From: Candidatus Chlorohelix allophototropha
Lineage (GTDB): Bacteria; Chloroflexota; Chloroflexia; Chloroheliales; Chloroheliaceae
DNA: 64,000 bases
Assembly (NCBI RefSeq): GCF_030389965.1
Contig: NZ_CP128400.1
Coordinates: 992,001 to 1,056,000 of the forward strand
Direction: 5' to 3'
Every line of letters starts with the position of its first letter. Position 1 is the first letter of the stretch. The position numbers and the translations under genes are program-made. The notes beneath the pieces are model-generated. The model made no database searches. It saw only the letters and a program-made list of their open reading frames with translations, and was not told the origin of the DNA. Positions 41,472 through 49,226 of this stretch are shown one piece after another.

Positions 41472-41493
41472 AAACGAGGCATTTACCTCGTTT
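41472..41493 (-). terminator. Terminator of the sigma/ImmA cassette
   Basis: AAACGAGG (41472-41479) pairs with CCTCGTTT (41486-41493). Read on the minus strand it is followed by a T-run, so it ends the minus-strand cassette just after the small membrane-protein gene. Confidence 0.75.
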
Positions 41494-41524
41494 CCTATCC
41501 TTTGAAGTTTTATTCGAGATTGCC

Positions 41525-41962
41525 CTATCTAAGCCGGGAATGGTTATGAGTAAAGTTCGCCGTAGTCCAACAACCGCATTCGGCGCAAAAGACCAGTTGG
41601 CGAGTAGAAGCGGGTGAAGGTAATGGGTGTGCGCGTTGCACTCTTTTGCGAGAGGAAAAGCGTGCTATTCGGATTATTCCATTTACAGGCTGAGGCTGTT
41701 TTCTGAGTTTGAGAGTTGACCAGTGCAACGCCAAGCCCACCAAACCCGCTACTACCCCCACCAAGCCCAATACTCCCAAACTGGCAAAGGCTGCGTCCTG
41801 TGAAGGATAAGGTTTAGGCAATCCGGCAAGCCATACTAGCAAACCGAAAAGCGTACAACTAAAAAAATACGCCCTCCGTGAAATTCGGCGAGCATATAGC
41901 GAATGTAAAGTCAGTAGGGTAACCAAAAACACAACCAGAAATACAGCCAGTAAAGGTGGCAT
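41525..41962 (-). CDS. Small membrane protein with C-terminal Cys/His motif
   Basis: Not recognised. From the ATG at 41962 (GCGAGGAG upstream) it has 145 residues: three predicted helices (MPPLLAVFLVVFLVTLLTL, YFFSCTLFGLLVWLAGL and ASLGVLGLVGVVAGLVGLAL), a basic loop and a C-terminal CAECGCW followed by HNHS, which could hold a metal. A longer frame extends upstream into the ImmA/IrrE gene but lacks a good start. It is the last gene of the sigma/ImmA cassette and may be the membrane sensor or target for the protease. Confidence 0.55.
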   Translation of the reverse strand: MPPLLAVFLVVFLVTLLTLHSLYARRISRRAYFFSCTLFGLLVWLAGLPKPYPSQDAAFASLGVLGLVGVVAGLVGLALHWSTLKLRKQPQPVNGIIRIARFSSRKRVQRAHPLPSPASTRQLVFCAECGCWTTANFTHNHSRLR

Positions 41963-42026
41963 ATGTTTCTCCTCGCCAGCACAGGATATAATCGCAAAGT
42001 TGCTACTACCTGCTCTATCTTCCGGT

Positions 42027-42797
42027 TTAGAAAAATGTGCCTTGTCCCGGTGTTCCCTTGCGGCTTTCTGCCTTGCGCGAACGAACCCCTTTGAATTCAT
42101 CCTGGCGCAAGCCCATTCCATTTAGCCGATAGTTTATTGCCGAAACCGAAACACCTAATTCCAGCGCCATACTTTTTACATCTCCGGCATGTTTTTTGTT
42201 AAGCCATTGCACCAGTTCGCGAGGCATCAGCAAACCGGAAGCAAAAACGTTTGCTTCCCATTCAAACCGATCGGCACGCTGCTTGAATTTGATAATCTTT
42301 GCCAGCCGCGCCTGTGCCTCTGCATCGTTCAATATGGTTTTCAGGGCGCTATCCTGCTCTTCTTCCATTTCGGTGGAATCGCAACGAAAGAAGCGCACGG
42401 CTTCCGCTGCGCCCTCTTCTTCCAACTCGAACAGGGTAGGCTGTTGGGCAACTTCAAGCGCCGGAATATAGTGTAAATAGTAATGTCCAAGCTCATGTGC
42501 AATTGAGAAATTCTGGCGTGTTTGCGATTCGTTTTCTTCGTACAAAATCTCCCCTGCCTCCGGGTCAAGTAAGCCCGAAAGCGAACGCCCGTCACATTCC
42601 AATGCCTTTACGCCTCGCACTGTAAAATCAGTCAGCGTCAATGCCAGATATTCCACCGGAACAGGCGGAATGTCCGGCACTTCCAGTCCGGCTTCTTCCA
42701 GCCTACCTTTAAACTCGCCGATGAGCTTGCCGGCGCGTTCTTCTATCTGGTAAAGGTTCGGTCTGCCCGACCATCTGCCGCCCCTATACCCTGTCAT
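42027..42797 (-). CDS. ImmA/IrrE-family metallo-endopeptidase
   Basis: A zinc protease of the ImmA/IrrE family, 256 residues. Known members (ImmA, PprI/IrrE) cleave transcription repressors in response to mobile-element or DNA-damage signals. The active site is HELGH at residues 101-105, inside FSIAHELGHYYLHY. A later helix-rich region has ANVFASGLLMPRELV, the usual third-ligand region. The C-terminus ends with an HTH-like DVKSMALELGVSVSAINYRL and a basic tail. Five bases separate it from the upstream 212-residue gene; the latter, or the sigma factor, is a natural substrate candidate. Confidence 0.9.
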   Translation of the reverse strand: MTGYRGGRWSGRPNLYQIEERAGKLIGEFKGRLEEAGLEVPDIPPVPVEYLALTLTDFTVRGVKALECDGRSLSGLLDPEAGEILYEENESQTRQNFSIAHELGHYYLHYIPALEVAQQPTLFELEEEGAAEAVRFFRCDSTEMEEEQDSALKTILNDAEAQARLAKIIKFKQRADRFEWEANVFASGLLMPRELVQWLNKKHAGDVKSMALELGVSVSAINYRLNGMGLRQDEFKGVRSRKAESRKGTPGQGTFF

Positions 42798-42802
42798 AGC
42801 TT

Positions 42803-43441
42803 TTACTCCTGTTCTTCTTCCCCTTTGAGCGCCTCAAGGATTTCCGCCTCGCTCAAATTCTGCGTGCGGGTTTCACTATCACGAGCAAACGCCATTCCCC
42901 GCATGGTTGGCGTTGCTGGTACACTCAGGCTCTTCACCGCGTTTTTCAGCCATTTCAGCAAACGCGGGAAAGCTGCATCCTTTACCCCATAGCGTTTTGC
43001 CAGAGCAGCATAATCTGCCAATCCATAATTCTTCAAATCATTCAAGGGTGTTGCGTCTTTTTTCAACGCCTCCACCACTTCCGGGCTTAGCCCGCTACCC
43101 GCTAATTCACCTGCGTTTAAGGCGGCAGATTGTTGCATATATTCGCCTAAGCTAGGGCTGGCGACAATTTCGCCCGTAAAAACTTTAGTTTTAAACCTTT
43201 CCCACGCTTTACCCCTGTCAGGCATGGCGCGTCCGGCGAGTGTCGGTATTTCAAACAGTACTAACCATTCGTGTAGTTCAATTTCAAGCTCAGGATACTG
43301 ACTCGCAAAAGCATCAATCTCGATGGGTTGACCTTCGTTGCGCTTTGCCAGAAATTCCGCTACCGCCAATGCCAATGACTCTTCCCGTTCACTGATTGTC
43401 TGTTCATCACCCGGTAATTCGCTTCTTCCCATGACTTTCAC
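42803..43441 (-). CDS. Unknown partner protein of the sigma/ImmA cassette
   Basis: Not a recognised family. The 212-residue acidic, mostly helical protein begins with a ~40-residue segment AVAEFLAKRNEGQPIEIDAF followed by SQYPELEIELHEWLVLFE, a pattern found at the start of some sigma partners and Ser/Thr kinases of Planctomycetota and Chloroflexota. The middle part contains VEALKKDATPLNDLKNYGLA and a possible HTH-like ALAKRYGVKDAAF. No membrane helix is present. It sits 16 bases after the sigma gene and 5 before the ImmA/IrrE gene, so anti-sigma or repressor roles are plausible, without proof. Confidence 0.55.
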   Translation of the reverse strand: MKVMGRSELPGDEQTISEREESLALAVAEFLAKRNEGQPIEIDAFASQYPELEIELHEWLVLFEIPTLAGRAMPDRGKAWERFKTKVFTGEIVASPSLGEYMQQSAALNAGELAGSGLSPEVVEALKKDATPLNDLKNYGLADYAALAKRYGVKDAAFPRLLKWLKNAVKSLSVPATPTMRGMAFARDSETRTQNLSEAEILEALKGEEEQE

Positions 43442-43457
43442 AACCTTTCCACCGCCG

Positions 43458-44264
43458 TTATAGTAGCCAGTCTTGCGCCTGACCGGGCATGCGCTTGCGG
43501 AGCCATACGATGCCGCGAGATGTATTGTGTTTAACCTGATCCATCGTCAAGCCCAATTCATCCGCCACTTCCTTGATTTTCTTGCCAAGTAGCCACTGGT
43601 AAACCAGCGGTGTGCGATAATTGGGCGGCATTTGTTCAATCAAATCGTGCAAAACTCTGACTTGCTCCAACCGAATTGCCGAGTCCGGTACATTTGCGGA
43701 GGCATCTTCCACTAAGTTAATAAGTTCGGCGCTTTCACCTTCCACCCCCGGCGCAGAAACATTGAGAGAAAGTACCACTGCCCCTTTTAGTTTGGAAGGT
43801 TCTTCTTGACCTTCCTCGTGGCGATTGGCGCGTTGCAACTTACGCCCTTGCAAAAGCTTTTCCAACAGGGTAGCATATTCGCGTTCAAAAGAGTGGCGCA
43901 CCAAACCCCGCAGATTTGTAACCACCTCGCGTCCGTTCAAGCGCTCCCAAACGGTCTGAAGAGTATCCTGAGCCAAGTCTTCGGCATAAACCGCACCGAT
44001 TTTACTCAACGCCCAAAAATAAGCTTGGTTCCAATACCGCTCAAAAATAGGTTTAAATGCTTCCGCCGCTTCCTCACTACGTGCGCCGAACTGTTCCGCT
44101 CTTGCCTTGTAGGCAGACACCAGTTCACTATCGCTGGATGGTTGCCTGTTCTGGGCGGAACCGCGCGGTCTGCCGCGCCCGCGAGGTTCGTTTTCACTCA
44201 TGTGTCCTTTAACCTCTTCAATATATTCCCCCGCAGTTTCAATATCAGGATTCAGCTTGTACAC
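43458..44264 (-). CDS. ECF-type sigma factor with N-terminal AT-hook-like motif
   Basis: A sigma-70-family protein of 268 residues. Residues 29-36 read RGRGRPRG, an AT-hook-like minor-groove binding motif that is unusual in sigma factors. Region 2 is seen as FERYWNQAYFWALSKIGAVY and AEDLAQDTLQTVWERLNG, and region 4 as LIEQMPPNYRTPLVYQWLLG and KKIKEVADELGLTMDQVKHN. The GTG start at 44264 has TGGAGG 7 bases upstream; an internal ATG at 44201 also has AAAGGA. It heads a four-gene operon ending at 41525. Two 11-bp direct repeats lie just upstream, suggesting autoregulation. Confidence 0.75.
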   Translation of the reverse strand: MYKLNPDIETAGEYIEEVKGHMSENEPRGRGRPRGSAQNRQPSSDSELVSAYKARAEQFGARSEEAAEAFKPIFERYWNQAYFWALSKIGAVYAEDLAQDTLQTVWERLNGREVVTNLRGLVRHSFEREYATLLEKLLQGRKLQRANRHEEGQEEPSKLKGAVVLSLNVSAPGVEGESAELINLVEDASANVPDSAIRLEQVRVLHDLIEQMPPNYRTPLVYQWLLGKKIKEVADELGLTMDQVKHNTSRGIVWLRKRMPGQAQDWLL

Positions 44265-44284
44265 GTTTTTTCCTCCAGTTTTTC

Positions 44285-44315
44285 GTTTCGGCTCAACAAT
44301 AATTGTTTCGGCTCA
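44285..44315 (-). promoter_or_regulatory. 11-bp direct repeat upstream of sigma gene
   Basis: TGAGCCGAAAC (minus strand) occurs at 44285-44295 and 44305-44315, exactly 20 bases apart, beginning 21 bases before the sigma start codon. On the same strand, GAACCTTAC about 20 bases further upstream could be a -35 element of ECF type. Autoregulatory binding is inferred. Confidence 0.5.
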
Positions 44316-44452
44316 GATGAACGTGTAAGGTTCTCAAATATTAATCGGCGGGTCTAGTAAAAAGTGCCACTATTTACCTATCATTTACCTCTATTAAAAA
44401 CCAATTAATCATAGCAAATTATTTCACACAATAAAATAAGACGGCTAACCCC

Positions 44453-44480
44453 TTTACCGTTTAATTCTGTCTGCTATAAT
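44453..44480 (+). promoter_or_regulatory. Promoter of the 48-residue gene
   Basis: TTTACC (44453-44458), a 16-base spacer and TATAAT (44475-44480). The transcript would carry a leader of about 155 bases before the small ORF. Confidence 0.55.
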
Positions 44481-44581
44481 CCAATTATACCTAAACTTTA
44501 GGAGAGCAAAGCCAACAGACATTGTGAGTGAGATTTTTAGCTCAAGTCTGCCCGTACCCTTGAATTATACATTTTAGTCGT

Positions 44582-44611
44582 GGAGTGGCGGCATAAGCCG
44601 TCTCCCTTTTT
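44582..44611 (+). terminator. Terminator-like hairpin in the leader of the 48-residue gene
   Basis: GGAG (44582-44585) pairs with CTCC (44602-44605) and CGGC with GCCG inside, followed by a T-run (44607-44611). Its place between promoter and start codon suggests attenuation. Confidence 0.55.
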
Positions 44612-44642
44612 ATTAACTTAACGTCTTTCGGGGAGCTTAAAA

Positions 44643-44789
44643 ATGAGTACTAACGAATTGGAAGGGTTGGTGTCAACATTGCGCCGCCTGATGAACAAAG
44701 CGCAGCAAGCAGGCGATACCATTGAATATTTTCGCTTAGGCGAAGAACTACGTATGGCAGACGCTGTCCTTAAAAGCATTAAAAATTAG
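44643..44789 (+). CDS. Small acidic-basic helical protein, 48 residues
   Basis: A short ORF with strong coding signs: GGGGAG 7 bases before the ATG, a promoter upstream and an amphipathic helical sequence. It starts MSTNELEGLVSTLRRLMNK, then holds DTIEYFRLGEELRMADAVLK. It has no cysteine, membrane helix or known motif. It is divergent from the sigma cassette and could be a regulator, an anti-sigma peptide or part of that system. No homologue is recalled. Confidence 0.65.
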   Translation: MSTNELEGLVSTLRRLMNKAQQAGDTIEYFRLGEELRMADAVLKSIKN

Positions 44790-47917: not shown

Positions 47918-48670
47918 ATGGGATTTTCGTTAGCGCTACGCCGTAGTGGAGTAGATACACTAACCGCCCGCAAGGGTAAACAAACGGCAGCGAGAATGAC
48001 CGAACCAAATCGCTTGAACACACAGGTCGGGGCGAACCCCTATCACGTAGTGGCAGCGCAGACCGCGCGAACCGCCCCGACCGAAGCAGATTTAATTGAG
48101 CGAAGCAAAGCAGGCGACCAGCAAGCTTTTGCCGCGCTTATTGAGTTGCATCAAGATCGGGTTTACAATCTTGCCTTCCGAATCCTGCAAAACGCCGAAG
48201 AAGCCGATGATGCCGCGCAGGAAACATTCCTGAAGGCGTGGCAAGCATTACCCACGTTCAGGGGTGATGCCAAATTTAGCACTTGGCTCTATCGTGTAAC
48301 CCATAATCATTGTTTGAATCGCTTACGCTCTGCCCGTAGTAACCCTAAAACCGTTTCGGTTGAATGGTACAGCGGAGAGGATAACGAAGAACATGATATT
48401 CTGGCTAATCTACCAGGCGATGAAAGCGACTTACCCGCCATCCAATACGAAGGGCGTGAACAGCGCGATATAATTTGGAATCAGGTAGATGCGCTTCCCG
48501 CTCGATATCGCGCTATAATTGTTTTATATTATTCGGACGAATTATCCTACGAGGAAATCGCTACCGCACTTGAAATTCCGGTGGGAACCGTAAAAACCCA
48601 TCTCTATCGTGCCAAAGCACTCCTCAAAACCCGGTTGGTTGAGTTAAACCAGAAGGGTATTCTAAGTTGA
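47918..48670 (+). CDS. ECF sigma factor
   Basis: A sigma-70-family ECF factor of 250 residues with a ~55-residue N-terminal extension. Region 2 carries ALIELHQDRVYNLAFRIL, ADDAAQETFLKAWQAL and KFSTWLYRVTHNHCLNRLR; region 4 has ALPARYRAIIVLYYSDELS and YEEIATALEIPVGTVKTHL. It is followed 16 bases later by a membrane protein that probably restrains it. An alternative start at 47997 would remove the extension. The signal and regulon are unknown. Confidence 0.9.
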   Translation: MGFSLALRRSGVDTLTARKGKQTAARMTEPNRLNTQVGANPYHVVAAQTARTAPTEADLIERSKAGDQQAFAALIELHQDRVYNLAFRILQNAEEADDAAQETFLKAWQALPTFRGDAKFSTWLYRVTHNHCLNRLRSARSNPKTVSVEWYSGEDNEEHDILANLPGDESDLPAIQYEGREQRDIIWNQVDALPARYRAIIVLYYSDELSYEEIATALEIPVGTVKTHLYRAKALLKTRLVELNQKGILS

Positions 48671-48686
48671 CTTTGGGGTGGTAAAT

Positions 48687-49226
48687 ATGGATATGAAAGA
48701 AAACAACCAAAATAGCAACGTTTCAGGGGTTCATATCCACTATTATGATGCCCTTGAGCGGGTCTTGTCGGAGCGTCCGGTTTTGAAAGCGCCGCGCAAT
48801 ACTTCCCAACGTGTGCTGGCGAGGCTTGCCGCCCTACAACCGGCGGAAGCACAGGTTATGATGGCAACTCGCGTTAAATACGCGCCGCCCACCGCTCTAC
48901 CGCTACCCGATATTGAGGATGAAGACTCCCTGCCAATAAACCGTCGTCTTGGCTTCTACCTGTTTGCCCTGGGTTGGGTTTCCTTGCTGATTGGGCTTGG
49001 GGCGTTAGCTTGGTTCTTCGTGCTTTCCCCGCTTTTGAACGGCGATAAATTCGGGCTGATTTACTGGATACTGGACACGCAGGACGGTTTGATGAGCTAC
49101 GGGCGCAACCTGCTTAATCTTTTCTCACATGCCGCGCCTTATCTGCCCTCCTTCCTGAGCCTGATAGCCGGGTTAGTAATAATGTTGCTGATCTTCCGCG
49201 TACAGCGTTATCGGGAAACGGCCTAA
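48687..49226 (+). CDS. Probable membrane anti-sigma factor
   Basis: A 179-residue protein with a cytoplasmic N-terminal region (about residues 1-90), in which a helix-rich segment ALERVLSERPVLKAPRNTSQ could bind sigma, followed by two or three membrane helices (FYLFALGWVSLLIGLGALAW and LSLIAGLVIMLLIF). It lacks the HxxxCxxC zinc motif of ZAS anti-sigma factors, so the role rests on position just after the ECF gene and on topology. ATG 48687 is preferred to an upstream GTG at 48678. The IS4-family element begins 19 bases after its stop. Confidence 0.65.
   Translation: MDMKENNQNSNVSGVHIHYYDALERVLSERPVLKAPRNTSQRVLARLAALQPAEAQVMMATRVKYAPPTALPLPDIEDEDSLPINRRLGFYLFALGWVSLLIGLGALAWFFVLSPLLNGDKFGLIYWILDTQDGLMSYGRNLLNLFSHAAPYLPSFLSLIAGLVIMLLIFRVQRYRETA

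Follow-up and report, generated by a model that had tools for sequence, protein, structure and literature searches.

The stretch of DNA analyzed here (the window, 64,000 nucleotides) spans positions 992001-1056000 of a 2.45-Mb replicon of Candidatus Chlorohelix allophototropha, in a genome of 6.09 Mb on five contigs; strain L227-S17 has chromosomes of 2.96 and 2.45 Mb and further replicons of 375, 241 and 55 kb (PMC10972752). Within it we examined a cassette of four minus-strand genes, running from 44264 down to 41525, which code in order for a sigma factor of the extracytoplasmic function (ECF) type (268 residues, 43458..44264), a soluble, all-helical protein of 212 residues that we term p2 (42803..43441), a zinc metallopeptidase of the M78 family (ImmA/IrrE/CapP-type, 256 residues, 42027..42797), and a small membrane protein of 145 residues with about three hydrophobic segments (41525..41962). 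As read from the open reading frames (ORFs), the successive gaps are 16, 5 and 64 bases, and an intrinsic terminator with a 13-pair stem and a T tract closes the run (41497-41468, minus strand); the gene run, its gaps and a closing terminator are as an earlier note on this DNA had described. Library profile searches recovered no family match for p2 or the membrane protein.

The order sigma-p2-M78-membrane protein is kept in all five Chloroheliaceae genomes, which represent three genera, with the p2 gene adjoining that for the sigma factor in each, while the genes flanking the cassette vary to give three distinct neighborhoods. Hence, the association of the four genes exceeds chance adjacency. 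Among the four relatives, the orthologous sigma factors are 56-57% identical to that of the window and the sigma factor and protease taken together 54-57%, as against 36-41% for p2 and 27-40% for the membrane protein, the least conserved part. Beyond the family the cassette was not recovered: p2 is present in all four other family genomes, 56 additional genomes of the class yielded none, a p2 profile search of 400 genomes of the phylum returned no genome outside the family, and a sigma profile search of 301 phylum genomes returned no additional genome with a sigma factor of this kind. Nor were relatives of p2 found in viral contigs and plasmids. The co-occurrence across Chloroflexota envisaged in the earlier note thus stands for five of five family genomes, but this form of the cassette is confined to that one family.

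An M78 protease beside a sigma factor and a helical protein

The sigma factor scores above the TIGR02937 sigma70-ECF cut-off (50.8 versus 42.9 bits) across residues 68-259, which cover regions 2 and 4. The protease likewise exceeds the Pfam M78 (PF06114) cut-off (60.2 versus 22 bits) and retains the HELGH version of the HExxH catalytic motif (residues 101-105; 42483..42497, minus strand) along with a third ligand, E179, which aligns with E113 of IrrE; H101ELGH105 and E179 are invariant in the eight sequences compared. Among named proteins, CapP and IrrE are the closest to it: its PADLOC matches are capP (best, E=7.6e-21) and RmrA, and 7t5t is its best match among PDB sequences. Both PprI and CapP are M78 proteases activated by single-stranded DNA, and in PprI this activation requires a C-terminal GAF-like domain (PMC10904395). 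The window protease carries a C-terminal segment resembling a helix-turn-helix (HTH), followed by about 24 residues.

All five family proteases end, after a variable linker, in an invariant QG[S/T]FF (42030..42044, minus strand, in the window). A C-terminal Q-x-x-[LMIFV]-F was found in six of the 957 distinct ORFs of the fetched loci, and five of the six are these proteases. The tail resembles the bacterial sliding-clamp-binding consensus, QL[S/D]LF or QxxLF (PMC12309361), agreeing with it at positions 1 and 5 and having F, not L, at position 4; the plasmid-type M78 proteins described below do not have it. We treat it as a lead toward a possible coupling to the replication fork and as nothing beyond that.

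Across the family p2 is about 215 residues long. Its structural model has a low mean predicted local distance difference test (pLDDT) score of 57.8 and gave no usable fold match. Residues 182-190 (GMAFARDSE; 42872..42898, minus strand) form a conserved, low-confidence and probably disordered stretch that is a candidate cleavage or recognition site, and the protease might perhaps cut p2 near the conserved GM-FAR segment at residues 182-187.

The clearest pointer to the role of p2 comes from a diverged second triad, sigma-p2b-M78, which we observed at three loci: L014, on the 241-kb plasmid of the same organism; L061, in another family of Chloroflexota; and L134, on plasmid6 of Aulosira laxa NIES-50, a cyanobacterium. 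It heads a seven-gene cassette (L014:1-7911; L061:6090-15026; L134:4530-12639) in which it is followed by a protein of 348-352 residues with no known family, a HerA ATPase (the L014 member matches PDB 7f6d at E=1.3e-46), an SbcD nuclease (above the TIGR00619 cut-off in both members tested), and, closing the run in all three loci, an SbcC-like ATPase. The 348-residue product occupies the position of NurA; comparisons with Pfam, NCBIfam and PDB sequences did not confirm it as such. A search of viral contigs gave no relatives of p2b.

Larger proteins, several of them with a clear membrane segment, begin with the domain formed by the first ~75 residues of p2b, and a sigma factor of the same family adjoins this domain in 18 of 20 places. 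This is the layout of an anti-sigma domain; an anti-sigma role for p2b, as a soluble factor, is hence very probable. Its model is more confident (mean pLDDT 85.5), and searches with Foldseek and VIA-align found no convincing relative (best Z 6.3, a value common for helical bundles). The C-terminal half of p2b gives a weak, collinear profile match to p2 of the window (columns 77-204 against 74-196, P=0.011), the score of which is equaled by none of 150 column shuffles, nor by the reversed profile; this half of p2b is absent from the larger proteins, which have no M78 partner. We accordingly regard this shared half as the part that the M78 protease may recognize. Given the recognizable anti-sigma-like domain in the parallel triad, the best reading of p2 is that it is probably both an anti-sigma factor and the substrate of the protease, as the earlier note had supposed, with binding and cleavage themselves being what we infer.

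A ~60-residue N-terminal domain with the pattern RY..ALE.GD..T...L.EAE.D..LE....E.N..Y was seen in one Chloroflexota family (L062-L067, L077-L093). The genes with it directly follow those of a shared sigma family, and genes for ATP-binding cassette transporters come next in several of the loci; the domain marks what is apparently an undescribed anti-sigma family.

A conserved putative promoter element and candidate regulon

The sole element conserved upstream of the sigma gene in all five genomes is TGGCACTTTT-N12-YGAT, with identical spacing throughout. In the window it reads TGGCACTTTT-N12-CGATTA (44342..44369, minus strand, 78-105 nucleotides upstream of the sigma start) and constitutes a predicted promoter with a -35 TGGCAC, a 16-nucleotide spacer and a -10 YGATW; the pattern has no other exact match within the window. 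Across the five genomes, one exact match outside the cassette itself lies 93 nucleotides upstream of an ssb gene in relative G002, and a match with one mismatch, which is an exact copy of TGGCACTTTT-N13-GAT, lies 83 nucleotides upstream of uvrB in the present genome.

We refined the pattern to TGGCAC-N16-YGATA, from which the window's own sigma operon departs only by CGATT, and scanned about 35 Mb in the five genomes by pattern searches together with inspection of sequence stretches. This gave 28 exact matches against 20 for a reversed-pattern control. As the total is barely above the control, the case for a regulon is built on where the copies lie and on the genes that they precede, not on how many there are. 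Nine of the 28 are positioned as promoters, lying between genes and a short way upstream of an ORF on the same strand: four precede sigma operons, four precede ssb genes, and one precedes a small ORF. The four ssb genes are second copies, one in each of the four genomes that have a second ssb. Promoter-positioned copies of the element are thus nearly all at this operon or at DNA-repair genes. In three relatives, uvrB is preceded by an element with the same 16-nucleotide spacing and a weaker -35 (ATGCAC). With a position weight matrix built from the nine sigma and ssb sites, the uvrB site of this genome scores 20.0 and a site at polA of relative G001 scores 18.0, while the uvrB sites of the relatives score 11.3-15.2 (chance ~0.01 or less per 300 nucleotides). 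The assignment of UvrB, SSB and PolA to their families is clear.

The G001 site, TGGCACATTTGCCCAAAACCGCTGATTA, lies 79 nucleotides upstream of polA (L192:2510-2589, minus strand) and is a candidate further target. Separately, TGGCACTTTTATATTC-N7-[AG]GATAT is conserved near genes of the ArsR and SRPBCC families in three relatives (L173:4216; L181:2776, minus strand; L178:2974), another possible target of the sigma factor. No clear copy of the window's element was seen upstream of the plasmid triads.

Other identities for the element were considered. A LexA operator is rejected: lexA scores above the LexA cut-off in all five genomes, and the upstream regions of these genes do not contain the element. 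The presence of LexA in all five also leads us to reject the cassette as a replacement for the SOS system. TGGCAC is reminiscent of the -24 box of sigma54 promoters, yet inspection found no TTGC at the proper distance. An Rfam search returned nothing convincing. Several Chloroheliaceae genomes encode two adjacent LexA-like proteins, one above and one below the LexA cut-off (L205-L208, L211, L213, L216).

A predicted proteolytic switch and its alternatives

Taken together, we posit that the four genes make up a stress switch that regulates itself, in which the M78 protease cleaves the anti-sigma factor p2 and the freed ECF sigma factor drives DNA-repair genes alongside LexA, a proposal that we consider reasonably probable. 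The soluble p2 would hold the sigma factor until the cytoplasmic metalloprotease is activated by a stress signal, for which DNA damage is the likeliest candidate, and cuts p2, probably within the conserved C-terminal region; the sigma factor so released would, in parallel to LexA, use TGGCAC-N16-YGATA promoters to transcribe its own operon, uvrB, the second ssb and perhaps polA. At the level of sequence, the support for this consists of the conserved operon, the intact active site of the protease, the conserved promoter and the recurrence of that promoter before repair genes. From these we infer the actual steps, namely that the sigma factor reads the promoter, that p2 binds the sigma factor, that the protease cleaves p2, and that the signal is DNA damage. 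A more far-reaching version, to which we give somewhat less than an even chance, is that the soluble protease itself senses DNA damage or the stalling of forks, by way of single-stranded DNA or the clamp-binding-like tail, and cleaves the soluble anti-sigma factor to launch an ECF repair regulon parallel to SOS, with the module having been reused on plasmids of two phyla for HerA-SbcCD operons.

Several observations weigh against this proposal. The GAF-like C-terminal domain of IrrE/PprI is absent from the window protease, and sensing of single-stranded DNA is therefore not assured. The profiles of p2 and p2b match weakly, with an hhalign probability of 3.9% beside the P value given above, and homology of the p2 N-terminus to the anti-sigma domain of p2b was not detected, 134 of 200 shuffles scoring equally high. 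The motif total, as noted, hardly surpasses its control, uvrB of G002 has no site, and the present genome has no second ssb. Moreover, the three genomes of genus g2 are close relatives and do not count as independent.

The alternative that best survives is that the switch operates as proposed but answers a membrane or redox stress perceived through the small membrane protein, the uvrB and ssb sites being coincidental or minor; we regard this as rather unlikely. The retention of the fourth gene in all five genomes and the candidate site before the ArsR/SRPBCC genes in three of them are in its favor, as is the near-control number of motif copies. Against this, ssb is the only recurrent exact target outside the operon (four genomes), the uvrB site of this genome is strong and is matched by sites of equal spacing in three relatives, the sister triad heads the HerA/SbcCD genes without any gene for such a membrane protein, and that protein is the least conserved of the four. 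The earlier note had cast it as a Cys/His sensor. Its C-terminal CxxC/HxH motif is found in the window and one relative and is missing in the three g2 genomes, which removes most of the basis for that idea and leaves it considerably weakened.

It is also improbable, if only slightly more so, that TGGCAC-N16-YGATA is the site of some other regulator or sigma factor, with the cassette as one target and the cassette's own regulon lying elsewhere. The element is tied to this sigma factor via presumed autoregulation only; nonetheless, two unlike half-sites at a fixed 16-nucleotide spacing resemble the -35 and -10 of an ECF promoter and not a palindromic operator, lexA does not have the element, and its exact promoter-positioned copies are nearly confined to the cassette operon and ssb. 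Less probable again is that the protease degrades the sigma factor itself, or that p2 is a co-activator or chaperone, such that proteolysis turns the response off. The direction of control is unproven by sequence and p2 belongs to no recognizable family; however, M78 proteases with known substrates remove repressors, namely DdrO and CapH (PMC10904395), the sister loci have anti-sigma-like proteins at the equivalent position, several of them membrane-anchored, and the p2-like C-terminal region of p2b is missing from the versions without an M78 protease. Finally, M78 proteins are often paired with HTH repressors in defense systems and mobile elements, and two of the three sister triads lie on plasmids while the window protease matches the PADLOC models capP and RmrA, but a selfish or defense cassette of the toxin-antitoxin-like kind that carries a sigma factor by chance is highly improbable, as there is no HTH repressor partner, the cassette is kept in five of five family genomes, and searches of viral contigs and of plasmids gave no p2.

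The proposed switch has points in common with several known systems. With IrrE/PprI-DdrO of the Deinococcus radiation response it shares an M78 protease that has HExxH together with the corresponding third Glu, and the predicted cleavage of a regulator to induce DNA-repair genes; it differs in that its target is a predicted anti-sigma factor and its output a sigma factor, in the protease architecture mentioned above, and in that the cassette encodes no HTH repressor of the DdrO/ImmR type, the neighboring p2 having no family match. CapP of CapP-CapH, the M78 protease activated by single-stranded DNA that regulates the cyclic oligonucleotide-based antiphage signaling system (CBASS), is the best PADLOC and PDB match of the protease. 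In contrast to CapP-CapH, the cassette has a sigma factor and p2 in place of a CapH-like HTH repressor or CBASS genes: when the sigma factor, p2 and the protease were run against PADLOC, the protease alone matched, and the flanking genes are not CBASS genes. Like the ECF sigma/anti-sigma pairs that regulated proteolysis releases (RseA/DegS/RseP, RsiW), the cassette combines a sigma factor and a predicted anti-sigma factor in one apparently self-regulated operon with a predicted proteolytic trigger; in those systems, however, the anti-sigma factor is membrane-anchored and the proteases are membrane-associated, whereas here p2 is soluble and the M78 protease is soluble, cytoplasmic and encoded in the same operon. 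The sister triad, for its part, precedes homologs of HerA, SbcD (Mre11) and SbcC (Rad50), as in the HerA-NurA-Mre11-Rad50 end-resection operons, and differs from these in adding the sigma/p2b/M78 head and in having at the NurA position a gene that matches no NurA model.

The known targets of M78 proteases are HTH repressors, while proteolysis of anti-sigma factors is known chiefly as the work of membrane proteases in envelope stress. An M78 protease that frees a sigma factor for uvrB and ssb would join both themes, and would constitute a damage response that activates transcription rather than lifting repression. Although the single elements are all known, their combination is new within the literature that we searched: no pairing of an M78 protease with an anti-sigma or sigma factor was found there, a weak form of evidence given the incomplete coverage, and a review of regulated proteolysis gives IrrE only with its repressor (PMC7593790). 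The earlier note's view of the pairing as non-standard agrees with this. The predicted promoters, substrate and protease are concretely testable, and the organism that carries them is a phototroph in culture, whose type I reaction center is unusual.

Some further features were observed nearby and in other loci. The earlier note had placed a divergent gene for 48 residues with the cassette; the frame (44643-44789, plus strand) is a plausible ORF and has a credible ribosome-binding site, but the relatives have no counterpart of it near the cassette, and we reject it as a member. Further along the window, at 47918-49226 on the plus strand, there is a separate, conventional-looking ECF sigma factor followed by a membrane protein. 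Among the fetched loci, no sigma gene adjoins the other Chloroflexota M78 genes save for the second triad and one weak match (L127), and several Chloroflexota families (at L126, L127 and elsewhere) have M78 domains within open frames of ~1200-1300 codons.

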